DNA of 59,479 nucleotides from positions 1 to 59,479 of the forward strand of contig MEOK01000033.1 of assembly GCA_001769195.1 (NCBI GenBank), given 5' to 3'. This document shows positions 10,359 through 24,989 of this stretch, in pieces (position 1 is the stretch's first letter; each line of letters opens with the position of its first letter). The position numbers and the translations under genes are program-made. The notes below the pieces were generated by a model, which was given only the letters and a program-made list of their open reading frames with translations, had not been told where the DNA came from and ran no database searches. The DNA is from Bacteroidetes bacterium GWF2_40_14 (GTDB taxonomy: Bacteria; Bacteroidota; Bacteroidia; Bacteroidales; UBA932).

Positions 10359-10601
10359 ATGTCCAAATCAGAACAAAAATTTAAAATCATGATTGATCAG
10401 AAATCTTTTGAGATTGAAGAACAATTCATTACAGGCTCGCAAATTAAAACGAAAGTTAGTGTCCCTGCAAATTATGGCGTATGGCTTAAAGTAAATGGCC
10501 CTGATCCTGATAAGGAAATCGCGGATATTGAACAAGTCGATCTAGCACAACCCGGAAGAGAACATTTTTTTACAGGCGCAAAAACAACTACTGAAGGATA
10601 A
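10359..10601 (+). CDS. ubiquitin-like modifier (multiubiquitin-type Ubl)
   Basis: An 80-residue protein that fits the bacterial multiubiquitin/Ubl family: a beta-grasp-sized chain with the segments FKIMIDQKSFEIEEQFITG, YGVWLKV, DIEQVDL and the family-typical REHFFTGA near the end. The chain terminates in a single glycine (TTTEG-stop), so the C-terminal carboxylate could be used for conjugation without processing. It is the first gene of a four-gene operon; its TAA overlaps the E2 ATG (TAATG). Unlike many relatives it has only one Ubl domain. It would be adenylated by the E1 encoded two genes down. Confidence 0.85.
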   Translation: MSKSEQKFKIMIDQKSFEIEEQFITGSQIKTKVSVPANYGVWLKVNGPDPDKEIADIEQVDLAQPGREHFFTGAKTTTEG

Positions 10602-10984
10602 TGTTTCTACCAGAATTCGACAGAGATTATTTACTTGAGAAGGGCTATCAATTTGAAGAAAAGATTGATGCTAATAGAAATGGTCTGATTTTAAGAAACT
10701 GGATATTGCCAGATGGTAAGTTTAACTTACAAACGTCTGATTTATTAATTCTGATTCCCAATGGCTATCCTGAAGTTCGGCCAGATATGTGGTATTTCAA
10801 TCCGGCTATATTATTAGCTCCGGCACATAGACCCGCCCGACAAACACAAGCAAATATTACATTTGAAGGAAAAGAGTGGCAACGTTGGTCAAGACATTAT
10901 CCTGCAAATGAATGGAGGAGTGGTGTTGATGGCATACATACCTACTTAAAAAAAGTACAAACAGCGTTGGAGGCAGCCTCATGA
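10601..10984 (+). CDS. E2-like (Prok-E2 family E type) protein without cysteine
   Basis: A 127-residue protein resembling the prokaryotic E2 family E: the segments LLILIPNGYPEVRPDMWYF, the RPARQ loop and W(S)RH followed by EWRSGVDG are as expected for an E2/UBC fold. In canonical E2s a catalytic Cys receives the Ubl as a thioester, but this protein contains no cysteine at all. Ser97 in RWSRHY or a nearby His/Tyr may take its place; related operons have been described as using oxyester chemistry, which I recall but cannot verify here. It overlaps the E1 gene by 4 nt (ATGA). Confidence 0.83.
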   Translation: MFLPEFDRDYLLEKGYQFEEKIDANRNGLILRNWILPDGKFNLQTSDLLILIPNGYPEVRPDMWYFNPAILLAPAHRPARQTQANITFEGKEWQRWSRHYPANEWRSGVDGIHTYLKKVQTALEAAS

Positions 10985-12369
10985 AACATACAATCACCAT
11001 ACAAGAACAACATTATCTGGAACTCAAGAATCATTTGATTCAGGAAGATGGCAGAGAAAGGGTTGCTTTTATTATTTGTGGTCGTTCATTGGTTAATAAT
11101 AATGAAGATAGACTGCTGACAAAAGAAGTTCATATTTTATCTGAAAATAATCTTATTTCATCTGAACTATATCAGGTGAGTTGGAATAATATTCATTTCA
11201 TAAAGGTTTTAGCAAAAGCGGAATCTAAAAGTTTTGCTGTAGTATTAATACACAATCATCCTGAAGGAATTAACCATTTCTCATCAGTTGATTATGAAGG
11301 TGAGTATCATCTTTTCAAATTAGCATTTAACAGAAATGGTGGCAAAGGCTCCCATGCCAGTCTTATTATGATGCCTGACGGCTCATTGATAGGGAGGGTT
11401 TGGAAGTCTGATTTATCGAATGAGCCGATCTCAAAAATTAGAATAATTGGAGAATCATTTAAATTTAATTATCCTGATAGAACTTCGAATTTTAAATCAC
11501 CTGAGGCATTTAATAGACAACAATTAGCATTTGGAAACTCATTAGTTCAGGATTTATCTAAATTGAAAATAACAATAGTTGGAGTTGGCGCAACAGGTTC
11601 TGCAACTGCTCTGCTATTGACGCGTTTAGGAGTCGGTGAATTATGCTTAATTGATAAAGACACAATTGAAGAATCGAATCTAAACAGGCTACACGGTTCC
11701 ATGTTGAAAGATGTTGGTAAATACAAGGTAGATGTACTGCAAAAATATATTAAGAAAATTGGATTAGGGACTAAGGTCTCTGTAGAAAAAAGATGGGTAT
11801 CTGATAAAAAGTGTATAGATCACCTAAAAACAAGTGATCTGATTTTTGGCTGTACTGACGATCATGCCGGCAGAATATTATTGAATCGTTTTGCATATTT
11901 TTACTTGACACCTGTAATTGATATGGGACTTATAATTTCTGTGAAAAAGGATTCTCATGAATTAGAGAATTTACAGGGACGTATTTCTTACCTTTTCCCT
12001 GGAAGTGATTGCCTTGTAACAAAAGGTAATATTAATATGGATATTGCCTATGCTGAAAACCTAAAAAGGAACGAACCCGAAAATTACAAAAAACTAAAAG
12101 AAGAAGCTTATGTAATTGGTGAAGGGAATCCTGCTCCTGCAGTTGTTACTTTTACAACCCAGATCGCAACGATGGCTGTTAATGAATTACTAAACAGAAT
12201 ACAGGGCTATAATGTACAAGCTTTAACTGCTCCGCACAAAATCTTTTTCTTTCATAGGGGAATGGAAATTCATCCGGAAAATATTTCAAATAATGAATGC
12301 CGTATTTGTGGTATGAACAATTATTGGGGCAGAGGTGATATGCAACCCTTTTTAGACATGGTTTTATAA
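10981..12369 (+). CDS. JAB/MPN peptidase - ThiF-type E1 fusion
   Basis: The protein combines both ends of the modifier cycle. N-terminal JAB metallopeptidase: E26 and the JAMM motif H91-x-H93-x7-S101-x2-D104, all ligands present, expected to process or remove the modifier. C-terminal E1/ThiF domain: GVGATG at 201-206, acidic residues D225/D227, and N-x-N-R at 233-236 for ATP and Mg binding and adenylation. C344 in PGSDCLVT is the position where E1-like proteins often carry the catalytic Cys, although the following CxxC pattern is broken. A CRIC pair at 440-443 may bind zinc. 462 residues; the third gene of the operon, and the next gene starts directly at its stop. Confidence 0.88.
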   Translation: MKHTITIQEQHYLELKNHLIQEDGRERVAFIICGRSLVNNNEDRLLTKEVHILSENNLISSELYQVSWNNIHFIKVLAKAESKSFAVVLIHNHPEGINHFSSVDYEGEYHLFKLAFNRNGGKGSHASLIMMPDGSLIGRVWKSDLSNEPISKIRIIGESFKFNYPDRTSNFKSPEAFNRQQLAFGNSLVQDLSKLKITIVGVGATGSATALLLTRLGVGELCLIDKDTIEESNLNRLHGSMLKDVGKYKVDVLQKYIKKIGLGTKVSVEKRWVSDKKCIDHLKTSDLIFGCTDDHAGRILLNRFAYFYLTPVIDMGLIISVKKDSHELENLQGRISYLFPGSDCLVTKGNINMDIAYAENLKRNEPENYKKLKEEAYVIGEGNPAPAVVTFTTQIATMAVNELLNRIQGYNVQALTAPHKIFFFHRGMEIHPENISNNECRICGMNNYWGRGDMQPFLDMVL

Positions 12370-12741
12370 ATGAAAAAGTTGAATTTTTTCAATAAAATAA
12401 TTCGAGATATGCTTTGGACATTCAAATATTTTCAATATAAAGTTGAGGTTATTCCTGACAATCCAGATCCGAAAAATTTAAAAAAAGACATTGTATATGT
12501 TGTTGGTGAAAAAAGATATGTGAAATGGGCATATATAAAATGTCCTTGTGGTTGTAATGATTCGATAATGTTGTCCTTAAACAAAAATATCTTTCCTTCC
12601 TGGTCAATTAAACAGGATAAACGGGGGAGGGTAACTATTTCACCTTCAATAAATAAATTGGATGGTTGTAAAAGTCACTTTCTAATAAAAAAAGGCAGAT
12701 TGATTTGGGCTCAAACTGCTGAAAGTTCACCATATTTGTAG
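12370..12741 (+). CDS. DUF6527 family protein of the Ubl operon
   Basis: A 123-residue protein with the DUF6527 pattern: KCPCGC (57-62), the SWSI...GRVTISPS strand pair and GCKSHFLIKKGRLIW (99-113). Cys58, Cys60/62, Cys100 and His103 look like a zinc site. DUF6527 proteins are regularly the last gene of bacterial Ubl/E2/E1-JAB operons; I recall that a member (BubE) was proposed as a deconjugating protease, but this cannot be judged from the sequence. It begins immediately at the E1 stop codon and its end overlaps, tail to tail, the minus-strand gene by 31 nt. Confidence 0.82.
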   Translation: MKKLNFFNKIIRDMLWTFKYFQYKVEVIPDNPDPKNLKKDIVYVVGEKRYVKWAYIKCPCGCNDSIMLSLNKNIFPSWSIKQDKRGRVTISPSINKLDGCKSHFLIKKGRLIWAQTAESSPYL

Positions 12742-13892
12742 TATAATAATGACTGCTCTATTTCTTTTTTATATTTTTCAAAATAACACCAATTAGTTAG
12801 CTTTTCATAAACTGCTTTAATATCAATTATTCCTTTATCATTTAATTTTTCAAAATTTATAATTGAAATAATCTCAGTTTGATGAGATGACCTAAACCAA
12901 TCTATTAATTCAATATAATCTTGTGTTGGGTTTTCGGATAAGATTAATGAAATAAACTCTTTTTCTTTATTTTTGATGCCTACTTTTGCATAATAGTTAT
13001 AGCCATCAAGTCTAGTATTTTTGGAATTTATTTTTTCAAGTACTGGTAATGATGAAAAAAAATCATCACTGTATTCGCTTTCTATGCTTGCGAGTTTATT
13101 AGATAGGGTTTCTGATTTATCTAAATCAATTTTTTGCTCTCTTAAGATTCGTGAAATTTTAAAAAGCTGTTCATCAGTAAAATCTACGTTTGGTGTAAGT
13201 GCAATATAATTAATCGCTTTACTCTGAAACTCTTTTTTTTCCGAAATCAAATTTATCAATGCTTGATCAATAGCTTCCTGTTTATTTTTATTTAAGTAAT
13301 CTATAAATTTACTATCAAATTCCTTTTTGATTTGATCAAACATTCCATTCTTTTCAGAATCAATATTTTGTATCGATTTATGTACTTTTTGTTCTAAATC
13401 AATCTGTTTTTCTCTTAAGTCTATTTTCAATTCATATATATTTTTAAGCTCGGTTGTAATATTTTCGTGATCTATTCTTATTTCTTCCTTCATTGGTTTA
13501 ATTGCTAATTGCTGAAATATAATCGGGATACCCACTGTCAACAAAATAATAACGATAGAGATTACAGTATACAATACAGCAAAAGAATCAATCATTGAAT
13601 CTAATTTATCAATTGTAGATTCAGCAGATGTAAGCGATTCCCGAAGCCTGGAGTCATCAATGCTTTTTTTTGTTGAATCGAGTGATTGTACTAAAAGATT
13701 AATTTTACTTCCAAAAACAGAATCTGATAAAGTCAATTTATTCTCAAGAAAATGTATTTGGTTTTTAAGTTTGACAATACTGTCAATTAATTCCTTTTTT
13801 ATTTGATTGTTTTCATTAGTTTTCTTCGATTGGGGATAGCAATAAATGAATGAAAAAGAAAATACAAGCAAAAACAATAAAGTTTTTTTCAT
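12711..13892 (-). CDS. membrane-anchored coiled-coil protein of unknown function
   Basis: 393 residues. The N-terminal signal sequence (MKKTLLFLLVFSFSFIYCYP) is followed by a coiled coil (about 25-100), one strongly hydrophobic transmembrane segment (about 106-130, LYTVISIVIILLTVGIPIIF), a second long coiled coil (about 133-200) and an alpha-helical C-terminal domain. The layout suggests a periplasmic heptad region with a cytosolic helical domain. It converges with the Ubl operon and overlaps DUF6527 by 31 nt. It may be an unrelated passenger, or an effector of the island; I have no family assignment. Confidence 0.7.
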   Translation of the reverse strand: MKKTLLFLLVFSFSFIYCYPQSKKTNENNQIKKELIDSIVKLKNQIHFLENKLTLSDSVFGSKINLLVQSLDSTKKSIDDSRLRESLTSAESTIDKLDSMIDSFAVLYTVISIVIILLTVGIPIIFQQLAIKPMKEEIRIDHENITTELKNIYELKIDLREKQIDLEQKVHKSIQNIDSEKNGMFDQIKKEFDSKFIDYLNKNKQEAIDQALINLISEKKEFQSKAINYIALTPNVDFTDEQLFKISRILREQKIDLDKSETLSNKLASIESEYSDDFFSSLPVLEKINSKNTRLDGYNYYAKVGIKNKEKEFISLILSENPTQDYIELIDWFRSSHQTEIISIINFEKLNDKGIIDIKAVYEKLTNWCYFEKYKKEIEQSLLYYKYGELSAV

Positions 13893-13911
13893 AATAAAAT
13901 AATTAGTAATT

Positions 13912-13919
13912 CAAAAGTA
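13912..13919 (-). promoter_or_regulatory. -7 box of the coiled-coil gene
   Basis: On the minus strand, TACTTTTG fits TAnnTTTG and ends 19 nt before the ATG at 13892. Confidence 0.4.
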
Positions 13920-13953
13920 ATTAAATTAATTTGGCTTTCATGATAATTATATC

Positions 13954-14193
13954 TTAGTAAATTCCCTCAAAGACATAATCTGGGTACGTGTTTTTTGCCG
14001 GATTCATGCCATTCAAGGTTTATATTTCTCGGAAGTGTTGGCGTTTTCCAGATTTTTGTCAATTCCGGACAAAAAGAGCATAATCCACAAAAAACCCGAT
14101 AGCTAAAGTGTCTCTTGATGTTATTGTTGCCCTGTATGCTAGGAATGCAAAGTTAAAGGCGGTGGATGGAGAGAAGTGGAAGAAGAAGGTTTG
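13954..14193. other. debris region at the left edge of the R-M unit
   Basis: The 480-bp gap 13893-14374 has no complete gene. Two protein-like fragments remain: a minus-strand tail reading NPAKNTYPDYVFEGIY before a stop at 13954-13956, and a plus-strand tail at about 14102-14193 reading VSLDVIVALYARNAKLKAV then DGEKWKKKV before TGA. Neither has a start codon. They look like the ends of genes cut when the restriction-modification unit arrived. An open frame at 14166-14369 has poor coding character. Confidence 0.3.
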
Positions 14194-14374
14194 ATGTTCT
14201 AAAAAAATCACTTTATCGACTGTTATTTAATGATATGCACTACCTTTATATAAAATTTATAAGTATCTTTATAGTCGTTTGTTATCCATTGATTCAATTG
14301 TTTTTAACTCTTTTTTGTTATAAGAAAACCTTTAAATATAATCCATATCGCTCTAAATTAATTATTTAATATTA

Positions 14375-17194
14375 ATGTCAAACCAAAATCCTGAACAAAT
14401 AGCAAGAGATCATATAGACAAGCAATTAACTGCTTGTGGCTGGATAATTCAGGGAATTAAACAGGTTAATCTTCATGCCGGTATTGGGGTTGCAGTTAAA
14501 GAATATTTAACTGATGTCGGACCTGCAGACTATGTCCTATTTGTAGATGGTAAACCTTGTGGGGTTATTGAAGCCAAACGGAAGGAGGAAGGGCACCGGA
14601 TTAGTATTCACGAAGATCAATCTGAAGGATATGCGATGGCGAAACTCAAACATCTGAAAAATGAACCTTTGCCTTTTGTGTATATCAGTACCGGCGAAAT
14701 TACTCAGCTTACAGACTTTACTGATTCCAAACCCAGGGGTAGAGAAGTGTTTTGTTTTCATCGTCCGGATACTTTGAGAGATTGGCTCAAAAAAGACAAG
14801 TCGCTTAGAACAAGATTACACGACTTGCCTGTCTTGCAAACTGCCGGGCTTCGTGAATGCCAAATCATTGCTATCAACAAACTGGAAGATTCATTTAAAG
14901 AAAACCGCCCCAGGGCCTTGATACAAATGGCTACCGGTTCTGGAAAAACCTTTACTGCCATTACCTTCATATATCGTTTACTTAAATTTGCTAAGGCAAA
15001 ACGAGTTTTATTTTTGGTGGACACAAAAAATCTGGGAGAACAGGCCGAGCAAGAATTTATGTCCTTCGTGCCAAATGACGACAACCGCAAGTTTACCGAA
15101 CTATACAGCGTTCAGCGCTTAAAATCGAATTACATAGCTACAGACAGCCAGGTGTCTATCAGCACCATTCAACGGTTGTACTCTATTTTGAAAGGAACAG
15201 AATTAGAAGAGAGTGAGGAAGTAGTAAATCCTAACGAAATAAAATACCAACCCAAGGAAATTCCTCCAGTCGAATACGACCCGAAAATGCCCGTTGAGTT
15301 TTTCGACTTTATTGTAATTGATGAGTGCCACCGTAGTATTTACAATCTTTGGAAACAAGTTTTAGAATATTATGATGCTTTTGAAATCGGCTTAACCGCC
15401 ACACCCGACAAACGAACAATCGGCTATTTCAACCAAAACATGGTGAGTGAATATTCACACGAAATGGCTGTGGCCGATGGTGTAAATGTTGGTTTTGATG
15501 TGTTTATTATTGATACCAAGGTAACACAGCAAGGTGCTACGCTCTGGAAAGGTGAATATATTGAGCATCGTGAGCGTTTGAGTCGGAAGAAAAGAATGGA
15601 ATTGCAGGATGAAGATGAAAATTATTCGTCAAAACAATTAGATAATGATGTGGTTAATCCAAATCAAATTAGAACTATCATCAGAACTTTCAAGGAAAAT
15701 TTACCCGTCATATTCAATGACAGATTTGACAAAAACGGAAATTTTGAAGTGCCTAAAACATTGATTTTTGCCAAAACCGATAGCCACGCTGACGACATAA
15801 TCAAAATTGTTAGAGAAGAATTTGCAGAAGAAAACCGTTTTTGCAAAAAGATAACTTATAATTCCGAGAAAGACCGGAGGGATGCTGATGACCACATCAT
15901 TGAAAAGGGAGAAGACCCAAAAAACACTCTGGCTCAGTTTCGCAACAGTTATCACCCGCGTATTGCAGTAACGGTGGACATGATTGCCACTGGAACGGAT
16001 GTCAAGCCCTTGGAATGTCTTGTCTTCATGCGTGATGTAAAAAGCCGAAACTATTTTGAGCAGATGAAAGGGCGCGGTACTAGAACTATTACATTGGACA
16101 ATTTGAAAAAAGTAACACCTACCGCTCAATTTACCAAAGACCATTTTGTGATTATTGACGCTATAGGCGTAACCAAAAGTTTGAAAACCGACAGTCGTCC
16201 ATTAGAGAAAAAACCGGGTGTACCGTTGAAAGATTTGCTGCAAGCAGTGGCAGTGGGAGCAAGAGATGAAGAGTTATTTACTTCATTAGCCAACCGACTA
16301 ACTCGATTAGATAAACAAATTACAGAAAAAGAAAAAAAGCAATTCACAGAAAAGGCAAATGGTAAAAGTGTTTCTCAGGTTGTGAGAGAATTGCTGAATG
16401 CTTTTAACCCTGATGTCCTGGAAGAAATCGAAACCAAGGTAAAAACTGAAAAAGCGGGCGCACCCCTTGTCGATATTAAAGCGGCCATTAAAGAAGAAAC
16501 TGAAAAACTTCAGAACGAGGCAGCCAAAGTCTTTACCGGCGAACTTAACGAATATATTGAAAATGTCCGCAGGGCGCATGAACAACGCATAGACCTGACC
16601 AACCCCGATGAAGTTACAAATATTGGTTGGGACAAAGGCAACAAAAACAACGCAAACGAACTTGTGAAGGATTTCGCCGAATGGATGGAACAAAACAAAG
16701 ATGAACTTCTGGCTTTGCAGATTTTTTACAACCAACCGTTCCGCAGACGCGAGCTCACCTACACGATGATAAAAGAAGTTCTCGAAAAACTTCAAAATGA
16801 CAAACCCTCACTTGCCCCAATGCATGTGTGGCGAGCTTACGAAGCTTTGGAGCAATGCAATGGCTCGCCCCGCAACGAACTCACAGCTATTGTTTCTCTG
16901 ATTCGCAAAGTAAGTGGTCTGGACACCACTCTCACCGCGTACGACAAAACAGTGGACAAAAACTTTCAGAATTGGGTATTTAAAAAACAAGCCGGAACCA
17001 CCAAGTTTAACGAAGAACAAATGCAGTGGCTGCGCATGATAAAGGATTATGTGGTAAATAGCTTCCATATTGAAAAGGATGATTTTGATTTAAACCCCTT
17101 CAACGCACAAGGAGGTTTGGGCAAAATGTGGCAACTGTTTGGAGAGCAGACAGAGGAGATTATTAATGAACTTAATGAAGTTTTAGCAGCTTAA
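14375..17194 (+). CDS. hsdR: type I restriction endonuclease subunit R (EcoEI-like)
   Basis: The motor/nuclease subunit of a type I restriction complex: it translocates unmodified DNA with ATP and cuts at a distance. The N-terminal nuclease domain shows the PD-(D/E)XK pattern around ADYVLFVDGKPCGVIEAK (about 50-68). Superfamily 2 helicase motifs follow: Walker A MATGSGKT (about 186-193), DECH box (about 316-319), GLTATP, and MIATGTDVKPL with QMKGRGTRT near 540-570. The C-terminal 200 residues fit the EcoEI_R_C domain that contacts HsdM/S. 939 residues is a full-length type IB HsdR. It is the first gene of a six-gene co-directional unit; tcmP begins 15 nt after it. Confidence 0.95.
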   Translation: MSNQNPEQIARDHIDKQLTACGWIIQGIKQVNLHAGIGVAVKEYLTDVGPADYVLFVDGKPCGVIEAKRKEEGHRISIHEDQSEGYAMAKLKHLKNEPLPFVYISTGEITQLTDFTDSKPRGREVFCFHRPDTLRDWLKKDKSLRTRLHDLPVLQTAGLRECQIIAINKLEDSFKENRPRALIQMATGSGKTFTAITFIYRLLKFAKAKRVLFLVDTKNLGEQAEQEFMSFVPNDDNRKFTELYSVQRLKSNYIATDSQVSISTIQRLYSILKGTELEESEEVVNPNEIKYQPKEIPPVEYDPKMPVEFFDFIVIDECHRSIYNLWKQVLEYYDAFEIGLTATPDKRTIGYFNQNMVSEYSHEMAVADGVNVGFDVFIIDTKVTQQGATLWKGEYIEHRERLSRKKRMELQDEDENYSSKQLDNDVVNPNQIRTIIRTFKENLPVIFNDRFDKNGNFEVPKTLIFAKTDSHADDIIKIVREEFAEENRFCKKITYNSEKDRRDADDHIIEKGEDPKNTLAQFRNSYHPRIAVTVDMIATGTDVKPLECLVFMRDVKSRNYFEQMKGRGTRTITLDNLKKVTPTAQFTKDHFVIIDAIGVTKSLKTDSRPLEKKPGVPLKDLLQAVAVGARDEELFTSLANRLTRLDKQITEKEKKQFTEKANGKSVSQVVRELLNAFNPDVLEEIETKVKTEKAGAPLVDIKAAIKEETEKLQNEAAKVFTGELNEYIENVRRAHEQRIDLTNPDEVTNIGWDKGNKNNANELVKDFAEWMEQNKDELLALQIFYNQPFRRRELTYTMIKEVLEKLQNDKPSLAPMHVWRAYEALEQCNGSPRNELTAIVSLIRKVSGLDTTLTAYDKTVDKNFQNWVFKKQAGTTKFNEEQMQWLRMIKDYVVNSFHIEKDDFDLNPFNAQGGLGKMWQLFGEQTEEIINELNEVLAA

Positions 17195-17209
17195 TTATAT
17201 GATACGATT

Positions 17210-18103
17210 ATGAAAAGTATTTTGGAAGAGCCAGAGGTAAAATGGGGTGGTACTTGGACTGAAATAAAACTAGATGCTTTTGCTAAATATGTTTCTGCAT
17301 ATTTGAACATTATGAGAAAGAATACTTACTGGAAAACCATATATTTTGATGGTTTTGCTGGTAGTGGAGAAAGAAAAACAAGAGATGTTTCGCCTCTTTA
17401 CCAGCAGTTAATGATAACCGAACAAGAAGAGAAATTATATAAGGGTGCTGCAGAAAGAGTTTTGACACTTCCAAATAATCTTTCATTTGACTATCATTAT
17501 TTTATTGATGCAAAAGAAGACTCACTAAAAAAATTAGAAAATAAACTTTCTGAACTCCAGAAAACTAAAAAATATCCTTTTAAATTTTGTCCAGGAGATA
17601 GTAATCAATGGCTATTAAAATTAGCCCAAGCCATGAAAGAAAACAAAAATAGTTATGCATCATTGGTTCTACTCGACCCTTTTGGAATGCAAATTAACTG
17701 GGAATCTATTGAATCCCTACGAGATACTAGAACTGACATATGGATACTTGTACCGACAGGTGTAATTGTAAACAGATTATTGGATAAAAGTTGTAATCTT
17801 ACTCACTCACACAAACTTCAGTCTTTTTTTGGACTAAGTGAAGATGAAATAAAACAGGCTTTTTACTATAAAGAATCTCATTTAACATTATTTGGTGAAC
17901 AAGAAGCTACATTAAAAGTGACGAAGCCAATTGAGAAAATTGCAAAACTATATGCACAAAGATTAAAAACTATTTGGACTTATGTTACAGAAGAACCTTT
18001 ACGCTTAGAAAACTCAAAAGGTGTTCCAATTTTTCATTTCGTTTTTGCTTCTAATAACCAAAGTGCGTTAAAAATTGCGAAACAAATTATTAAAAGTGTT
18101 TAA
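17210..18103 (+). CDS. tcmP: three-Cys-motif partner protein TcmP
   Basis: TcmP proteins are always found next to a three-Cys-motif (DUF5131/Gp37-Gp68) protein; their biochemical role is unknown, but the fold is probably a methyltransferase-like Rossmann domain. Visible: an EEPEVKWGGTWTEIKLDAF start, YFDGFAGSG (motif I-like, about 44-52), SLVLLDPFGMQINW (about 157-170) in the position of a motif IV, and a C-terminal alpha/beta region. 297 residues. The partner gene starts 2 nt downstream. Finding the pair inserted between hsdR and hsdS suggests a role in the same defence unit. Confidence 0.88.
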   Translation: MKSILEEPEVKWGGTWTEIKLDAFAKYVSAYLNIMRKNTYWKTIYFDGFAGSGERKTRDVSPLYQQLMITEQEEKLYKGAAERVLTLPNNLSFDYHYFIDAKEDSLKKLENKLSELQKTKKYPFKFCPGDSNQWLLKLAQAMKENKNSYASLVLLDPFGMQINWESIESLRDTRTDIWILVPTGVIVNRLLDKSCNLTHSHKLQSFFGLSEDEIKQAFYYKESHLTLFGEQEATLKVTKPIEKIAKLYAQRLKTIWTYVTEEPLRLENSKGVPIFHFVFASNNQSALKIAKQIIKSV

Positions 18104-18105
18104 TT

Positions 18106-18831
18106 ATGGCTAGTACAAAAATTGAGTGGACAGAAAGCACCTGGAACCCCATTACAGGTTGCACCAAAATATCTTCGGGTTGTAAATTTTGTTATGCCGA
18201 AGTAATGGCTCTGCGACTTAAGGCCATGGGACAAGAAAAGTATAAGAATGGCTTTGAACTTACCTTACATCCAGATGTAATAAATGAGCCTTATACATGG
18301 AAAAAAGGGAAAATGATTTTCGTAAATTCCATGAGTGATCTGTTTCACGAAAAATTACCGATTGAATACATCCAGCAGATTTTTAAAGTAATAAAAGAAA
18401 ACCCGCACCATGTATTTCAGGTTTTAACAAAGCGTGCTGATATATTAAGATACTACGACAGCGAAGGGTGGTTGGAATGGCCACACAATCTCTGGATGGG
18501 CGTTACTGTTGAAAATAAAGATGTAATGGGCCGTATCGAGAATTTAAGAAATACAGGAGCAAGAGTTAAATTTTTATCCTGTGAGCCGCTTTTAAGTTCG
18601 TTGCCGGATATGAATTTACAAGGCATTGATTGGGTAATTGTTGGAGGGGAAAGTGGTAGAACTCCACGACCAATGAAAGAAGAATGGGTGCTTGGCATAA
18701 AAGAACAATGCCAAAATGCAAATGTCGCCTTTTATTTTAAGCAGTGGGGCGGAACAAATAAAAAGAAAGCAGGAAAAATGCTTGAGGGGAAAGTATATAA
18801 TGAAATGCCAGTAATTATTGAAAGTATTTGA
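18106..18831 (+). CDS. DUF5131 / phage Gp37-Gp68 family three-Cys-motif protein
   Basis: 241 residues. The N-terminal WNPITGCTKISSGCKFCYAE contains C-x6-C-x2-C (residues 19, 26 and 29 approximately), a radical-SAM-like iron-sulfur cluster motif. It continues with MSDLFHE, VLTKRAD, WMGVTVEN and LSCEPLL, then WVIVGGESG, the regular strand pattern of this family, which resembles a radical SAM barrel. The partner TcmP is encoded immediately upstream. hsdS starts at the base after the stop codon. Substrate unknown. Confidence 0.9.
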   Translation: MASTKIEWTESTWNPITGCTKISSGCKFCYAEVMALRLKAMGQEKYKNGFELTLHPDVINEPYTWKKGKMIFVNSMSDLFHEKLPIEYIQQIFKVIKENPHHVFQVLTKRADILRYYDSEGWLEWPHNLWMGVTVENKDVMGRIENLRNTGARVKFLSCEPLLSSLPDMNLQGIDWVIVGGESGRTPRPMKEEWVLGIKEQCQNANVAFYFKQWGGTNKKKAGKMLEGKVYNEMPVIIESI

Positions 18832-20007
18832 ATGATAAAAAACATTAACATTCCAAAGCATTGGCAAGTAAAGATTTTGGGAGAAGTCTGCGAAATTAAA
18901 AGTGGAAAGAATCAGTCAAAAGTCATAAATCCCAATGGAAAATATCCAATTTATGGAAGTAGTGGAATTTTTGGTTACGCTGATGAATATATATGCTCTG
19001 AAGGAACCACTATAATTGGTAGAAAGGGTACAATAAATAGTCCAATATATGTAAAAACAAAGTTTTGGAATGTTGATACAGCTTTTGGATTGTGTTCCAA
19101 AGAGGGTCTTAATGGTAAATTCTTATATTATTTCTGTAGAGGTTTTAATTTTCATAAACTGGATAAAAGTACGACAATTCCAAGTTTATCAAAGAGAGAT
19201 TTACTTTCTATTGATATTCCTATTCCACCACTCAATGAACAACTGGCAATAGTATCCAGAATTGAAGAACTTCTAAGCGATTTAGAAAATGGGAAACAAC
19301 AACTGCAAACAGCTCAACAGCAGTTAGAAATCTATCGCCAGAGTTTGTTAAAGTGGGCTTTCGAAGGAAAACTCACAAATAAAAATATTAAAGATGGTGA
19401 ATTGCCGAAAGGTTGGAAATTGAGGAAAATTTCAGAATTATCCAATGTTGTTAGAGGTGGCTCCCCAAGGCCAGCAGGAGACCCAAAGTTTTATGATGGC
19501 AAGATTCCTTTTCTTAAAGTGAGAGATATAACAAAAAATAGCAATGCTTTCATAACAACTTTTGAATATACAATCAAGGAAGCAGGATTGTATAAGACAA
19601 GGCAAATCAGACCAAATACTTTATTGCTTTCAAATAGTGGTGCAACATTAGGAGTTCCTAAAATCTGTATGATTGATGCAACAATGAATGACGGTATTGC
19701 GGCTTTCTTAGATTTAGATGAAAGAAGTAATCTGTATTTGTATTATTTCTGGCTGAGCAAAACAAGAGAACTTAGAAATATTAACATGGGTGCTGCACAA
19801 CCAAACTTGAATACAGATATTATTAAGAATTATTTTGTGCCTTATTGTTCATTTGATGAACAAAAACTCATCGTTGACGAATTAGAAAGCAAACTCACCG
19901 TCTGTGACAAAATTGAAGAAACAATAAGTCAAAGTTTGCAACAAGCAGAAACACTAAAACAAAGCATCTTAAAGAAGGCTTTTGAAGGGAAACTAACTAA
20001 ACAATAG
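18832..20007 (+). CDS. hsdS: type I restriction-modification specificity subunit S
   Basis: Determines the bipartite target sequence for HsdM and HsdR. Two target-recognition domains are visible: TRD1 (about 8-145) and TRD2 (about 190-345), each followed by a conserved helical spacer; the first contains LAIVSRIEELLSDLENGKQQ and KWAFEGKLT, the second LIVDELESKLTVCDKIEE and KKAFEGKLT. 391 residues is normal. Translation starts directly after the DUF5131 stop codon. The two AFEGKLT-encoding repeats could allow recombination between specificity genes, but no second hsdS is in the window. Confidence 0.93.
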   Translation: MIKNINIPKHWQVKILGEVCEIKSGKNQSKVINPNGKYPIYGSSGIFGYADEYICSEGTTIIGRKGTINSPIYVKTKFWNVDTAFGLCSKEGLNGKFLYYFCRGFNFHKLDKSTTIPSLSKRDLLSIDIPIPPLNEQLAIVSRIEELLSDLENGKQQLQTAQQQLEIYRQSLLKWAFEGKLTNKNIKDGELPKGWKLRKISELSNVVRGGSPRPAGDPKFYDGKIPFLKVRDITKNSNAFITTFEYTIKEAGLYKTRQIRPNTLLLSNSGATLGVPKICMIDATMNDGIAAFLDLDERSNLYLYYFWLSKTRELRNINMGAAQPNLNTDIIKNYFVPYCSFDEQKLIVDELESKLTVCDKIEETISQSLQQAETLKQSILKKAFEGKLTKQ

Positions 20008-20048
20008 TGATATGAGAGCCCAAATAAATGTAAAATCAAAAAATATAT

Positions 20049-21986
20049 ATGGATCTAAGTAATATTTATTCTTTACGAAAGAATTTTACAATTGTCGCTC
20101 TCACAGGTCGCACCGGCTCTGGGTGTACTGAATTCGCAGAGAGTTTATCCAAAGGATTTGTAGATAATATTGATATCTATCCAAAACCTGTTAGTTTTGG
20201 TTATGATCATAATGTATACAGAAAATATAGGATAATTTATAATTACGCATATAAAAACTTTCAACCATTTGAAATTATTAATTATAGAGATATTCTATAT
20301 GCATTTATTCTAAAAAGTGGTTACAGGAGATTTATCTCTTTTTTAGACTCTATTTCCTTAAAAGAAGAGTTTAAAAAATCAAATTTCAAAGTGAAAACAA
20401 ATTTTAGAAACGAAATTGAAAAGTTAAGTAAGTTGGAGGAACGTTTTGATATCTTAACAGCAGAAGCAGAAGATGTTATAACAGACAAGACCAAAAGTAA
20501 TGACGATTTAGAAAAATTGTATATATTTATTAAATCACCTAATTTCAAAAAGACTTGTATAGAACTGAGTGATATTCTTCAATCTGAATCTATTATTAAA
20601 AGGAACAAAACTCTTCAAATAATTTCTAATAATTTGAGAAAATCTGGAGATCCTTATAACGAGACTGCTATAGATTCCAATAGCATTTTCATTATTGCTG
20701 AAGTTATCAATGATTTAATTAAATCAATCAGAAAAAGAAATGTGGAAAAAGACACAAAAATTGTGATTGACACTCTCAGAAATCCATTAGAAATAATGTT
20801 CTTTCGGCAGCGGTTTTCTGCATTTTACACTTTTGCAATACACCGCACTGATGATAGTAGAGAAAGGGAAATAAACCTGAGATTCAAAGGTAAAGAGAAA
20901 AAAGATATAGCTATATTATTGGACGAAGAACATTCTGGAGCTAAATCTGCAGAGTTTTATAAACAAAACGTGTCTCAATGCATTCAAAATGCTGATATAC
21001 ATATAGCCTTTATTACTAAAGCTGATGCCAAGGACATGAATACAAAAAGAATTCAAAAAAAAGAAATCGTAACTCCATATTATTCATGGGGAATGCAATT
21101 ATTGAAATACGTAACGCTTATTGATCATCCTGGTATTATTACACCATCAGCAGAAGAGAGATGTATGCAACTTGCATATACTGCAAAATATAATTCAGGT
21201 TGTATTTCAAGGCAAGTAGGAGCTGCTATTACAGATGAATTCTACTCAATGAAGGCCATAGGGTGGAATCACACACCAGAGGGACAAGTTCCCTGTAGCC
21301 TTAGGAACGCAGAAGATCTAATTTATATGAAAAATGATAAAGCGGCCTTTACACCATTTGAAAGGAAGGAGAAAAAATTTAGAGAAGCTCTGAACTACAA
21401 CTACCAAAATTGTATAAATCAATCAAGAGAATTATTAAAGGGACGAAATGTAAGCTACTGCTTTAAATCATTAATAAATTCATATTCTGACGGAAAAAAC
21501 CAAGTACATACTCGGTCTTTACATGCTGAAGAAAGTGCATTCTTACAAATCTCAAAATTTGGTGGCATTGGTATAAAGAATGGAAAATTATTTACAACGG
21601 CAAGTCCTTGCGAATTATGTTCAAAAAAAGCTTATCAACTTGGTATTAAAGTTATATACTATATTGATCCATATCCTGGTATATCAAAAAGTCACATTTT
21701 GGAGGCAGGGAGAAAAGAAAGAAATCCAAAAATCAGACTTTTCGAAGGTGCTATTGGGAACGCCTATCACTGGTTATATGAACCAATTATGACATACAAA
21801 GACGAATTATCATTGATTTTCGATTTTGAGATTAAGGACTTAACAAAACAATATCAAGAAAAGAACAATATTCTAAATATTGAAAATCAAATGTTAGAAT
21901 CAAAAGTTAAAAAATTAGAATTAAAAATAAAGAAGTTCGAATCAACCAATAAAAAAGATCCGATGAAATTCAAAAATAAAATATGA
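20049..21986 (+). CDS. AvcD-like anti-phage (deoxy)cytidylate deaminase with P-loop domain
   Basis: The N-terminal domain begins with FTIVALTGRTGSGCTEFAES, a P-loop (about 17-29) in which Cys26 stands where Walker A has Lys, as in a nucleotide kinase-like fold; the middle region is helical and charged. The C-terminal domain is a zinc-dependent cytidine/dCMP deaminase: HAE at 492-494 and PCxxC with C521 and C524. This two-domain layout matches AvcD/dCTP-deaminase defence proteins, which deplete deoxycytidine nucleotides during phage infection. The last 40 residues are coiled coil. The gene sits between hsdS and hsdM and overlaps hsdM by 4 nt. Only 41 nt separate it from hsdS, too little for an AvcI-like inhibitory RNA. 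Confidence 0.85.
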   Translation: MDLSNIYSLRKNFTIVALTGRTGSGCTEFAESLSKGFVDNIDIYPKPVSFGYDHNVYRKYRIIYNYAYKNFQPFEIINYRDILYAFILKSGYRRFISFLDSISLKEEFKKSNFKVKTNFRNEIEKLSKLEERFDILTAEAEDVITDKTKSNDDLEKLYIFIKSPNFKKTCIELSDILQSESIIKRNKTLQIISNNLRKSGDPYNETAIDSNSIFIIAEVINDLIKSIRKRNVEKDTKIVIDTLRNPLEIMFFRQRFSAFYTFAIHRTDDSREREINLRFKGKEKKDIAILLDEEHSGAKSAEFYKQNVSQCIQNADIHIAFITKADAKDMNTKRIQKKEIVTPYYSWGMQLLKYVTLIDHPGIITPSAEERCMQLAYTAKYNSGCISRQVGAAITDEFYSMKAIGWNHTPEGQVPCSLRNAEDLIYMKNDKAAFTPFERKEKKFREALNYNYQNCINQSRELLKGRNVSYCFKSLINSYSDGKNQVHTRSLHAEESAFLQISKFGGIGIKNGKLFTTASPCELCSKKAYQLGIKVIYYIDPYPGISKSHILEAGRKERNPKIRLFEGAIGNAYHWLYEPIMTYKDELSLIFDFEIKDLTKQYQEKNNILNIENQMLESKVKKLELKIKKFESTNKKDPMKFKNKI

Positions 21987-23470
21987 GCAACAACACATCT
22001 TCAATAGTTTCCAAAGTCTGGTCTTTCTGTAATCCCCTTCGCGATGTCGGTGTGGGTTATGGCGATTATCTGGAACAACTTACTTACCTGCTGTTTCTGA
22101 AAATGGCTGATGAATACAGCAAGCCTCCCTATAACCGACAACTGAATATCCCAAAGGATTTCAATTGGGAGAGCCTTACAAACAAGAAAGGGGCCGAATT
22201 GGAATTGCATTATGCTAAGTTGCTTCGGGAGTTAAGCATACAAAAAGGTATTTTGGGACAGATATTCACCAAGAGCCAAAATAAAATTCAGGATCCGGCA
22301 ATGTTGGCCAGGGTAATTGATATGATTGATAGCGAAAACTGGTTGGTGATGGGGGCAGATGTCAAAGGCGATATTTACGAAGGATTGCTGGAGAAAAATG
22401 CAGAAGACGTAAAAAGCGGTGCTGGACAATATTTTACACCAAGGGCTTTGATTCGTGCTATGGTAGAATGTGTCCAGCCCCAACCAATGAAAACCATTGC
22501 CGATCCTGCTTGTGGCACAGGTGGTTTCTTTCTGGCTGCCTATGATTATTTGGTAAAAGAACACAAGTTGGACAAAGATCAAAACACCTTTTTGAAACAT
22601 TCCACCTTTTTCGGGAATGAAATTGTGGCTGGAACAAGGCGTTTGGCTTTGATGAATTTGTTTTTGCACAACATTGGCGATATAGATAGCGATAACTTTA
22701 TTTCTCCTGCCGATGCATTGATCGCAGCTTCTCCAAAGACATACGATTATGTTCTGGCAAATCCTCCATTCGGTAAAAAGAGCAGTCAAATCTTTACAAA
22801 TGAAGAAGGAGAATTGGAAAAGGATGAACTGACCTATAATCGTCAGGACTTTTGGGCAACTACCAGCAATAAGCAATTAAATTTTGTTCAGCATATTCGC
22901 TCTATGCTTAAAACGACTGGAATTGCTGCTGTTGTTGTCCCAGATAATGTATTGTTTGAAGGCGGAGCAGGGGAAGCGGTCCGCAAAAAGCTTATGGAAA
23001 CTACCGATCTGCATACTATTCTCCGTTTACCTACAGGAATATTTTATGCTAATGGGGTAAAGGCTAATGTGATTTTCTTCGACAACAAACCTGCAAGCAA
23101 AGACCCTTGGACAAAGGAAATCTGGGTATATGATTACCGGACAAACATTCATCATACATTAAAGAAAAATCCTTTAAAAACAGATGATCTCAAAGATTTT
23201 ATTGTTTGTTTCAACCCAACTAACCGGCACAAACGCAATGAAACCTTTAATGCAGAAACCAACCCAGAAGGCCGTTGGAGAATGTTTCCCTACGAAGAAA
23301 TAATCTCCCGCGACAAAACCAGTTTAGATATCACATGGCTCAAAGACAAATCACTTGCAGACCTCGATAATCTTCCCGACCCCGATGTTATTGCAGAGGA
23401 TATCATTGAAAATTTAGAGGCAGGTTTAGAGAGCTTTAGAGAAATAATGAGAACATTGAATACCAAATAG
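21983..23470 (+). CDS. hsdM: type I restriction-modification DNA methyltransferase subunit M
   Basis: N6-adenine methyltransferase of the type I complex. The N-terminal HsdM_N helical domain (about 5-130) contains DVGVGYGDYLEQLTYLLFLK. Motif I ADPACGTGGFF (about 172-182) binds S-adenosylmethionine; motif IV NPPFG (about 259-263) is the adenine-specific catalytic loop. 495 residues is normal. It is the last gene of the unit, overlapping the deaminase gene by ATGA. No terminator is obvious after it; a truncated gene on the other strand begins 85 nt downstream. Confidence 0.95.
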   Translation: MSNNTSSIVSKVWSFCNPLRDVGVGYGDYLEQLTYLLFLKMADEYSKPPYNRQLNIPKDFNWESLTNKKGAELELHYAKLLRELSIQKGILGQIFTKSQNKIQDPAMLARVIDMIDSENWLVMGADVKGDIYEGLLEKNAEDVKSGAGQYFTPRALIRAMVECVQPQPMKTIADPACGTGGFFLAAYDYLVKEHKLDKDQNTFLKHSTFFGNEIVAGTRRLALMNLFLHNIGDIDSDNFISPADALIAASPKTYDYVLANPPFGKKSSQIFTNEEGELEKDELTYNRQDFWATTSNKQLNFVQHIRSMLKTTGIAAVVVPDNVLFEGGAGEAVRKKLMETTDLHTILRLPTGIFYANGVKANVIFFDNKPASKDPWTKEIWVYDYRTNIHHTLKKNPLKTDDLKDFIVCFNPTNRHKRNETFNAETNPEGRWRMFPYEEIISRDKTSLDITWLKDKSLADLDNLPDPDVIAEDIIENLEAGLESFREIMRTLNTK

Positions 23471-23555
23471 TCAATGTCTGATAATTGCGTTTAAATATTA
23501 CCTGATAGTGTAATTACCACGCAGTTATTTTTGTTTACAAAGCAAGCCTCGACAG

Positions 23556-24638
23556 TTATTCGTCCCCTTGATTCTGATACAGTCCGCTTTTGAGATTGAG
23601 CCGATGGGCTTCGTCTACAATGAGTGCGTCAAATGTGTTTTTGTCGCAGTCCCAGTAGCTTCCGGTTCCGCCGAACATATTGTCGATGTTGGTGCGCTTG
23701 AATTTGCCTGTCAGTTTGGTTATGTACACTGCTCTGGGGGCCGCGTTTTTGGAGACGTACTTGGCAACCAGTCCTCTCTTTGTCAGTTCTGTCAGCAGGT
23801 TTATTGCAACAACGCTCTTGCCTGTCCCCGGCCCTCCTTCCACTATCAGAACCTGCTTCTTTTCATTTGTCGCTCTTTGGGCCATCAGCAGTGCCGTTTC
23901 ATAAACTTCTTTCTGATCGTCAATCATTATGAATTCCCTATTGCCGGCGATCATTGAGGCGACGCTGTCGGCCAGCTGCTTGGATGGTCTCAGCCTGCCG
24001 TTCTCGATTTTGTACATTATGTCCCTGTCGTCGCCGTATTTCACATACTTCTTTATGAAGTTCCTCAGCTTTACTGCGTCGGGCCTTAAAAAAACAGGGG
24101 CTTTGTTTATATGGAAATCATAAAAGGTGTTTGTGATGACATCGTCCGGGGTGTAGTTGTGGAGGTATGCGCATGGTATCAGGCTGATGTTCTCGTCCTG
24201 CACTGTGCGGTTGTAGCTCTCTATGAGTGCGGCATAGGACCACGCCTGATAAGATGGGTGGACGGTGTCGGTGGCTCCGTGCTGGAAGTGGGTTCTCACC
24301 ATCGCCTCTTTTTCTGTCAGCTGTGCTTTTGACCACTGCTTTAGCTCGACGATTATGACTTGCTGATTGTGCTCTTCGTTCAGTCCGGTTATGACAAAAT
24401 CGATCCGCTTTGAGGTGAGCGGTATCTGAAATTCGATGGATATTCCTGCGTCTGTTGCTATTTCCGGGTCGGACAGTACATTGCTCATGTGCATCATCGA
24501 ATTGGTCCATGAGAGCACCTCATTCTGCGATGTGCTTCTGCCCAGATGTCTGATAAATGCGGCTTTGATTTTGGTGTCGATCTCGTTGTTGAGGACGTCG
24601 CTCAGGAAGCCGTCTTTTGTAGACTGATATACAATCAT
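23556..24638 (-). CDS. DUF2075-type nuclease/helicase protein, C-terminally truncated
   Basis: The N-terminal 210 residues contain a PD-(D/E)XK-like core (KRIDFVITGLN...VIIVELKQW, about 75-100). A superfamily 1-like ATPase follows: Walker A EGGPGTGKS (about 268-276) and Walker B LIVDEAHRLN (about 337-346). The protein stops 14 residues later (KSGLYQNQGDE-stop), whereas DUF2075 proteins normally continue for about 250 residues with further helicase motifs. The cut lies next to the end of the R-M unit, so the insertion probably removed the 3' half. It is likely non-functional as a helicase. The MazG-like gene is 12 nt upstream in the same operon. Confidence 0.85.
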   Translation of the reverse strand: MIVYQSTKDGFLSDVLNNEIDTKIKAAFIRHLGRSTSQNEVLSWTNSMMHMSNVLSDPEIATDAGISIEFQIPLTSKRIDFVITGLNEEHNQQVIIVELKQWSKAQLTEKEAMVRTHFQHGATDTVHPSYQAWSYAALIESYNRTVQDENISLIPCAYLHNYTPDDVITNTFYDFHINKAPVFLRPDAVKLRNFIKKYVKYGDDRDIMYKIENGRLRPSKQLADSVASMIAGNREFIMIDDQKEVYETALLMAQRATNEKKQVLIVEGGPGTGKSVVAINLLTELTKRGLVAKYVSKNAAPRAVYITKLTGKFKRTNIDNMFGGTGSYWDCDKNTFDALIVDEAHRLNLKSGLYQNQGDE

Positions 24639-24650
24639 AGTCTTTTGAAT

Positions 24651-24989
24651 TTACAGCTCGTTGTATTTCTTGGCGGTGCCCTTGGCCTTGTCGGCCGGGT
24701 ATTTTTCGCCGTTCCTTTTAATCTTTTCGCGGACAATCTCGAAAATGTCCAGATTGTGCTTTTCGGCCAGGAGGAATGCATATGCCAGGATGTCGGCAAG
24801 TTCTTCCTTTAATCGCTCTTTATCAACTGCTTCAACCTCCGAATCCTTCTTCCACAGAAAGAGCTCGTTGAGTTCTCCCGCTTCCAGAAAAAGTGCCAGA
24901 GCAAGGTTTTTTGAATCGTGAAACTGAGCCCAGTCTCTCTCATTTCTGAACTCGATCAGTTTTTTGACAATTTCTTGGTATTCAGTCAT
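24651..24989 (-). CDS. MazG-like nucleotide pyrophosphohydrolase
   Basis: 112 residues, all-alpha MazG/dUTPase-like fold, hydrolysing (d)NTPs to monophosphates. Metal-binding EAGELNE (about 36-42) and EELADILAYAF (about 66-76) supply the ExxE...ExxD ligands. MazG-like proteins are frequently encoded with DUF2075 proteins, as here (12-nt spacing, same strand). The length matches single-domain housecleaning enzymes of the RS21-C6/MazG type. Together the pair may be a nucleotide-sensing defence module whose second gene is now truncated. Confidence 0.88.
   Translation of the reverse strand: MTEYQEIVKKLIEFRNERDWAQFHDSKNLALALFLEAGELNELFLWKKDSEVEAVDKERLKEELADILAYAFLLAEKHNLDIFEIVREKIKRNGEKYPADKAKGTAKKYNEL

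Follow-up and report, generated by a model that had tools for sequence, protein, structure and literature searches.

The contig MEOK01000033.1 of Bacteroidetes bacterium GWF2_40_14 (59,479 nt, the whole stretch of DNA analysed and referred to here as the window) carries a unit of six genes at positions 14375-23470 of the plus strand. In this unit, the genes of a type I restriction-modification (R-M) system are interspersed with a TcmP/DUF5131 pair and a gene for an AvcD-type deaminase. Based on the layout of related loci and on the neighbourhoods and phylogeny of the deaminase, we regard the unit as probably a two-slot type I R-M operon that houses layered, largely independent defences, and not as a latch of the PrrC kind. 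The common order found in 51 loci from hsdM-directed searches is hsdR, slot 1, hsdS, slot 2, hsdM, with varying cargo in the slots. The genes of the window take the following places:

14375-17194, +, hsdR, type I restriction subunit, first gene of the unit, 939 aa (Pfam ResIII, E = 2.7e-40; EcoEI_R_C, 8.6e-41; HSDR_N)
17210-18103, +, TcmP (three-Cys-motif partner), slot 1 cargo, 297 aa (TIGR04474; PADLOC PDC-M41A)
18106-18831, +, DUF5131 three-Cys protein, slot 1 cargo, 241 aa (PF07505, E = 2.2e-97; PADLOC PDC-M41B/M30B; C-x6-C-x2-C)
18832-20007, +, hsdS, specificity subunit with two target-recognition halves, 391 aa (PF01420 Methylase_S, 5.6e-43, two stretches)
20049-21986, +, AvcD-type dCTP/dCMP deaminase, slot 2 cargo, 645 aa (PADLOC dCTPase; dCMP_cyt_deam_1, 1.3e-12)
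21983-23470, +, hsdM, N6-adenine methyltransferase subunit, 495 aa (PF02384 N6_Mtase, 7.9e-68; HsdM_N)

The six genes and their predicted products

The intergenic distances along the unit are 15, 2, 0, 41 and -4 nt, and the start of hsdM shares 4 nt (ATGA) with the deaminase stop. An earlier sequence-only reading of this DNA had given the order, common direction and spacing of the open reading frames (ORFs) exactly to the base. Its six gene identities are borne out by Pfam, TIGR04474, PADLOC and motifs, and the ORF spacing agrees with the single operon-like run that it had proposed. The scan for promoters and terminators was uninformative (31 promoter-like sites compared to 33.3 expected by shuffling, 3 terminator-like sites compared to 6.8).

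In gene and domain content the hsd genes correspond to a type I R-M system, with a predicted nuclease/translocase, an N6-methyltransferase and a specificity subunit with two target-recognition domains. The nuclease (PxD...ExK) and helicase (DECH) motifs of HsdR are intact, as are DPACGTG and NPPF of HsdM. The window HsdR is the sole EcoEI_R_C match in its own genome. The G + C fraction is 0.406 for both hsdR and hsdM, 0.312 for TcmP, 0.379 for DUF5131, 0.331 for hsdS and 0.303 for the deaminase.

TcmP scores 140.7 bits against TIGR04474 (cut-off 53) and 358.6 bits against PADLOC PDC-M41A, while Pfam gives no match. It is perhaps a Rossmann-fold S-adenosylmethionine (SAM)-dependent methyltransferase, its FDGFAGSG and LDPFG being similar to motifs of such enzymes. 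The weak fold matches of its model (TYW4, E = 2.2e-4, and spermidine synthases) serve as a hint only, since the model was built from 4 sequences with a mean predicted local distance difference test (pLDDT) value of 59.5. The adjacent DUF5131 protein matches PDC-M41B with 403.2 bits and also PDC-M30B; M41A and M41B side by side constitute the PDC-M41 candidate pair.

The deaminase matches the PADLOC dCTPase family with 412.6 bits. Its NF041025 score of 335.3 bits is under the equivalog cut-off of 400, and it is therefore classed as AvcD-type by architecture and not as an NF041025 equivalog. This architecture comprises an N-terminal P-loop kinase-like domain, with GRTGSGCT starting at residue 20, and a C-terminal zinc deaminase domain with HAE (492-494) and PCELC (520-524). 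Both zinc motifs are invariant in an alignment of 48 deaminase sequences. In the P-loop, Cys replaces the Walker A Lys; this Cys is shared by all members of an alignment of 6 sequences and by at least 90% of the 48. The AlphaFold2 model has a mean pLDDT of 90.4. In the Protein Data Bank (PDB) its best matches, with E values from 9.5e-7 to 2.6e-5, come from dCMP deaminases and include a bifunctional dCMP/dCTP deaminase; human CDADC1 with bound dCTP follows next. The P-loop part found a weak match only, to the adenylate-kinase-related 3lw7 (E = 0.022, rank 49). Judged by architecture and model, the protein is an intact two-domain AvcD-type enzyme with predicted deaminase activity.

It resembles AvcD in having P-loop and deaminase domains and the motifs of a zinc deaminase, and probably also in a P-loop residue other than lysine, as far as the available text on AvcD goes (PMC10511110). 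AvcD seems to be without the P-loop Lys as well, because its inactive mutant is S49K+E376A (PMC10511110), with S49 presumably the P-loop position. Apart from the lower score, the window gene differs from AvcD in the small space before it and in lacking a recognised antitoxin RNA. Only the 41 nt between hsdS and the deaminase offer room for an AvcI-like RNA next to the gene, and no Rfam match up to an E value of 1 was obtained in 13800-23700, the presence of AvcI in Rfam being unconfirmed. A leader RNA for the deaminase may sit inside hsdS.

Two slots in related hsd loci

Related loci were collected by hsdM search. Among 395 genomes of the class, 29 matched at E ≤ 1e-100 (own genome included), giving 30 places, of which all except that of the window were used (29 regions). 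Among 395 genomes of the phylum, 34 matched at E ≤ 1e-180 (again including the own genome), giving 35 places; 28 were used, omitting the window, G565 (already included) and five near contig ends. The slot count covers 51 loci and excludes six more distant ones (L167-L169 and L171-L173; hsdM identity 54-58%). The evaluable loci number 38 for slot 1 (from 25 genera) and 44 for slot 2 (from 29 genera); the rest were mostly cut by contig ends, and L161 was lost to ORF calling. A slot was counted as filled at more than 200 nt, based on plus-strand ORFs and distances from mechanical ORF calls.

Slot 1 is filled in 31/38 loci (21/25 genera) and slot 2 in 29/44 loci (26/29 genera), so that variable genes occur in both the hsdR-hsdS and the hsdS-hsdM interval. 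Genus counts are the fairer measure, since genus g389 is over-represented: none of its 11 evaluable slot 2 places is filled, and DUF5131 is present in 8/9 of its slot 1 places. At the DNA level, window and L146 are similar in hsdR up to its stop, in parts of hsdS and in hsdM from its start, with no similarity in either slot, while similarity to L148 continues from hsdR through TcmP and DUF5131 and ends there. The related loci share the same two insertion places, which is more than chance.

Cargo families were taken from selected scanned representatives and include AlbA_2/HATPase_c_4, DUF4062, GmrSD_N, AAA/PtuA (Septu), RhuM, PDDEXK_3, a metallo-beta-lactamase fold, KAP NTPase, DUF6615 and DUF3644. 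A PADLOC scan of nine slot proteins matched seven to a family, two of them weakly; the remaining two, a DUF4062 protein and a protein of L149, had no PADLOC family. Pfam gave no match for the scanned slot 2 proteins of L164, L162 and L043, and the gene piece L163:5522-6595 was not used. Several families were found in either slot: the AlbA type in slot 1 of L146 and L156 and slot 2 of L148, L154, L157, L166 and L170; PDDEXK_3 in slot 1 of L153 and L154 and slot 2 of L037; the metallo-beta-lactamase protein in slot 1 of L155 and slot 2 of L163. GmrSD-type cargo lies in slot 2 of L037 and L146, and slot 1 of L043 holds DUF433 and PIN-like proteins. The called cargo is mostly co-directional, with many joins being 4-nt overlaps or gaps below 35 nt.

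The cargo of the window recurs unequally. DUF5131 occupies slot 1 in 14/38 evaluable loci (7/25 genera); its neighbour was called as TcmP (M41A) or M30A in 12 of the 14 and is an unlabelled ORF in L212 and L230. The deaminase was found in slot 2 of none of the 44 hsdM-directed loci, but two further members of the same hsd family, L037 and L043 (hsdM 80% and 88% identical to that of the window), carry it there and were found by deaminase-directed search. The inserts are thus not missing from homologous hsd loci, as they would be after an accidental insertion, and the view of both as defence-type genes in a non-random position holds.

In three of the six loci with more distant hsdM genes that are outside the slot count, L168 (in the own genome, G000:C20), L167 and L172, the order is hsdS-PtuA-PtuB-hsdM, with the Septu genes within the hsdS-hsdM interval; PtuB was recognised in the scan of L167. 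No HsdR of the window's kind was recognised in the sequence examined, other HsdR families not having been searched. Septu may replace HsdR in these loci, or the window HsdR may act in trans. The genes upstream in L168 are presumably mobilisation genes.

Neighbourhoods and history of the deaminase

A scan of 84,980 species yielded 251 deaminase relatives, and the analysis covered the loci of the 80 best. An hsdM gene was recognised in 18/80, a lower bound given that some loci are short, and 62/80 are without a recognised one in the stretch examined. In six of the 80, hsdS lies directly upstream and co-directional, with hsdS-deaminase gaps of 2 (L037), 90 (L043), 1 (L049), 51 (L059), 25 (L082) and -1 nt (L085). 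When the deaminase was placed at random in those 16 loci where an hsdS was labelled, the mean was 0.59, and none of 5000 permutations reached six; the seat after hsdS is therefore not due to chance. The hsdM genes of L049, L059, L082 and L085 show only 30%, 38%, 29% and 38% identity to the window gene. In five more loci an hsdR-like gene is directly upstream of the deaminase, although this profile may include related helicase-nucleases. The deaminase is flanked by hsd genes on both sides in L037, L043 and L049 (order hsdM-hsdS-deaminase-M30A-DUF5131-x-hsdR) and lies between two hsd gene sets in L097. DUF5131 was found in 3/80 deaminase loci (L036, L049, L051), always at most two genes from the deaminase (permutation P = 0.013).

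Within 295 genomes of the order, 145 matched the deaminase at E ≤ 0.001; among the matches listed, all but those of the own genome, G151 and G002 are short with E ≥ 1e-7. Two phage records matched over about half of the query. The 23 deaminase loci on viral contigs contained no recognised hsd, DUF5131 or multi-ubiquitin gene, and no TcmP relatives were found in viral contigs. Fifty-two plasmid records matched the deaminase, 7 of them over at least 80% of the query; in the five of these 7 that were inspected, no window-type hsd protein match was present beside it.

On the Picosynechococcus plasmid pAQ5 (L034:3252-11854) the deaminase follows an annotated site-specific DNA-methyltransferase and a restriction endonuclease, with a UPF0175/DUF3368 pair between the genes of these two. 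This is embedding and appending at an R-M locus without a type I annotation. On a Geminocystis plasmid (L031:8341-11863) the deaminase, in which Trp replaces the first motif Cys, adjoins an annotated dGTP triphosphohydrolase, placing two nucleotide-depleting enzymes side by side.

In a quick deaminase tree (52 chosen of 86 rows, SH-aLRT support only), the window sequence clusters with L036 (support 96) and L037 with L039 (90), while L043 falls outside both groups. The label 'hsd nearby', borne by 15 rows, changes 14 times on this tree, compared to a mean of 13.2 when shuffled. The nearest relative L036 (deaminase 57.6% identical) has TcmP/DUF5131, and no hsd gene was recognised in its 21.9 kb. 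The hsdM tree, which includes two very long rows (L049 and L171), groups the window with L146, L147 and L043. A single clade of the window, L037 and L043 hsdM, the three with a deaminase in slot 2, is rejected (p-AU 8e-6). Identity values point in the same direction: HsdM of L043 is 87.8% identical to that of the window and its deaminase 47.5%, and L146, with an HsdM identity of 87.9%, has no deaminase and carries GmrSD in slot 2. The deaminases of L037, L043 and the window were apparently recruited into slot 2 independently, as judged from these trees and identities. The window TcmP shares 60% identity with its counterpart in the hsd locus L148 and 35% with the one in L036, indicating that the TcmP/DUF5131 pair tracks the hsd lineage and not the deaminase.

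About 1.6 kb before hsdR lies a ubiquitin-like conjugation operon (10359-12741, +):

10359-10601, +, Multi_ubiq domain protein
10601-10984, +, Prok-E2_E
10981-12369, +, E1/ThiF
12370-12741, +, DUF6527

A conserved four-gene operon with relatives of the window deaminase (50-56% identical) was found in L038:812-4748, L040:8353-12300, L041:8349-12392, L042:8356-12321 and L103:2805-7005. It consists of a Multi_ubiq protein, E1 (DUF6791+ThiF), the deaminase and DUF6527, the last two being swapped in L103; labels come from Pfam for L040 and one L041 protein and from similarity for the others. In L053, genes for Multi_ubiq, E1 and DUF6527 lie about 5 kb from the deaminase. The operon of the five loci ties a dCTP-deaminase-type enzyme to a bacterial ubiquitin-like pathway and is possibly more novel than the restriction operon itself. 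Behind hsdM and convergent with it (23556-24989, -) are a P-loop ORF with weak matches to PDC-S41, AbiO and Nhi and a small protein, which we take to resemble MazG-type pyrophosphohydrolases. By eye, the deaminases of L052 and L098 have a closely similar small protein encoded two genes upstream.

Interpretation and relation to known systems

In the reading that we consider probable, the window unit is one member of a type I R-M family that occurs across the phylum (Bacteroidota, to judge by the named loci L037 and L043) and has a gene order with two places for exchangeable cargo. TcmP/DUF5131 is a frequent resident of slot 1 and the deaminase a rare resident of slot 2, apparently acquired more than once. 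A single transcript beginning upstream of hsdR would cover all six genes. Type I enzymes cleave DNA that lacks their modification, and the HsdR/M/S enzyme would do so with invading DNA. The deaminase would convert dCTP/dCMP to dUTP/dUMP upon infection and starve phage DNA synthesis. It presumably has its own trigger, since 62/80 deaminase loci are without a recognised hsdM. As far as the available text describes it, AvcD depletes deoxycytidine nucleotides on infection, with control by the RNA AvcI in Vibrio (PMC10511110). The motifs of the TcmP/DUF5131 pair suggest methyl transfer and radical-SAM chemistry on nucleic acid. These defences would travel and be co-expressed together, and recombination in the flanking conserved hsd genes would swap them jointly.

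Some observations weigh against this reading. L214 was counted as filled without any plus-strand ORF of 100 aa, minus-strand ORFs are present in slot 2 of L151, L159 and L162, and antisense ORFs hid a DUF5131 in L162 from the mechanical calls. The NF041025 shortfall means that the substrate of the deaminase could differ from that of AvcD. Repeated gain of the deaminase is indistinguishable from ancestral presence followed by loss or replacement, and its seat right after hsdS together with the 4-nt overlap also fits a closer functional coupling.

Such coupling could take the form of a guardian, with the HsdM/HsdS(/HsdR) complex holding the deaminase inactive until a phage block of restriction frees it as a dCTP-depleting back-up. 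The precedent is PrrC, which the linked type I enzyme EcoprrI keeps silent and T4 Stp switches on, according to the available text of PMC2610378 and PMC12707154. The deaminase stop overlapping the hsdM start and the six loci with the deaminase directly after hsdS, in four of which the hsdM shares only 29-38% identity with the window gene, are in line with this idea. For PrrC orthologues, however, linkage to a type Ic system is described as invariable (PMC2610378), whereas an hsdM was recognised in 18/80 deaminase loci, given above as a lower bound, and the nearest relative, L036, is without recognised hsd genes. The deaminases next to hsdS also have no special C-terminal extension, with tails of 38-59 aa in 7 hsdS-adjacent rows and 18-72 aa in 15 other Bacteroidota rows. 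A guardian role is unlikely on this evidence. We consider it quite unlikely that the seat behind hsdS is a guardian's place in several type I families, from which the deaminase would monitor HsdS/HsdM and deplete dCTP when restriction is blocked, with TcmP/DUF5131 as part of the control; the pair adjoins the deaminase outside hsd loci also, in L036 and L051.

A purely recombinational origin would explain the great diversity of the cargo, the families shared by both slots, the scatter of hsd-linked deaminases over the tree and the minus-strand ORFs in the three loci named above: hsdS is prone to recombination, and cargo would land there and stay without functional ties to restriction. Yet seven of the nine scanned slot proteins match a PADLOC family, the called cargo is largely co-directional and often tightly joined, and the 14 evaluable loci that have DUF5131 carry it in slot 1 (second copies elsewhere were not searched). 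This is more order than drift alone predicts, and the explanation does not appear likely. An accidental single insertion is disfavoured by recurrence, namely the deaminases of L037 and L043, the six loci with the deaminase after hsdS and the cargo in related slots.

The sequence-only reading had proposed one composite defence system, possibly with the deaminase as a back-up upon failed restriction. For such a back-up, the linkage and tail comparisons above do not favour a dedicated latch. The inserts do recur in hsd loci, but one conserved composite of the six genes is not supported: the same order was seen in no other examined locus, DUF5131 fills slot 1 in its 14 loci without a deaminase, the three hsdM genes with a slot 2 deaminase do not form a clade, and L036 has the deaminase without recognised hsd genes. 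A fixed six-gene system in which every part is required is highly improbable in view of this cargo turnover and the deaminase and hsdM trees, despite the compact co-directional run with translational overlap and the closeness of DUF5131 to the deaminase in all three of the 80 loci that have it.

The two-slot operon is of a known kind, because the two-slot layout, embedded effectors and TcmP/DUF5131 candidates have been described before. In Campylobacter jejuni, the ORFs between hsdR and hsdS are termed rlo and those between hsdS and hsdM mlo (PMC5183652, available text). The loci studied here belong to another phylum and carry deaminase, TcmP/DUF5131, Septu and GmrSD-type cargo; their likeness to rlo/mlo is one of described layout. 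The type I R-M cluster on VPI-2 of Vibrio cholerae embeds TgvAB, for which phage protection was shown (PMC11411939, available text), and GmrSD-type cargo likewise occurs in slot 2 of the related loci L037 and L146. TgvAB performs modification-dependent restriction, whereas the window cargo is predicted to act on nucleotides. In enteropathogenic Escherichia coli (EPEC), DarTG2 with the repressor RptR lies between hsdS and hsdR (PMC12255303, available text); there too a type I operon houses a toxic effector, though a different one. PrrC/EcoprrI also places an effector gene inside a type I locus (PMC2610378, PMC12707154) but combines obligate linkage with a latch, while the deaminase mostly occurs without a recognised hsdM. 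The pairing of a TcmP-type protein with DUF5131 is already a candidate defence system in PADLOC (PDC-M41/PDC-M30).

Defence genes embedded in other defence loci were reported in the preprint of Payne et al. 2024, as cited in the available text of PMC12255303 and PMC11411939. Type I R-M and dCTP deaminase are both listed as CAST cargo in PMC12452197, in the available text of which nesting is not stated, and AvcD and TgvAB are treated as separate systems in that of PMC12409362. No description of a dCTP deaminase between hsdS and hsdM was found in the open-licence literature searched, nor was this cargo with its recurrence met there.

Taken together, one hsd family is recognised, with counts, as a two-slot carrier of defence-type genes, and AvcD-type deaminases recur directly behind hsdS, including next to distant hsdM genes. 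Reading out the slots offers a simple source of new defence candidates, and the loci allow a test of whether the effectors inside them simply ride along or guard restriction.

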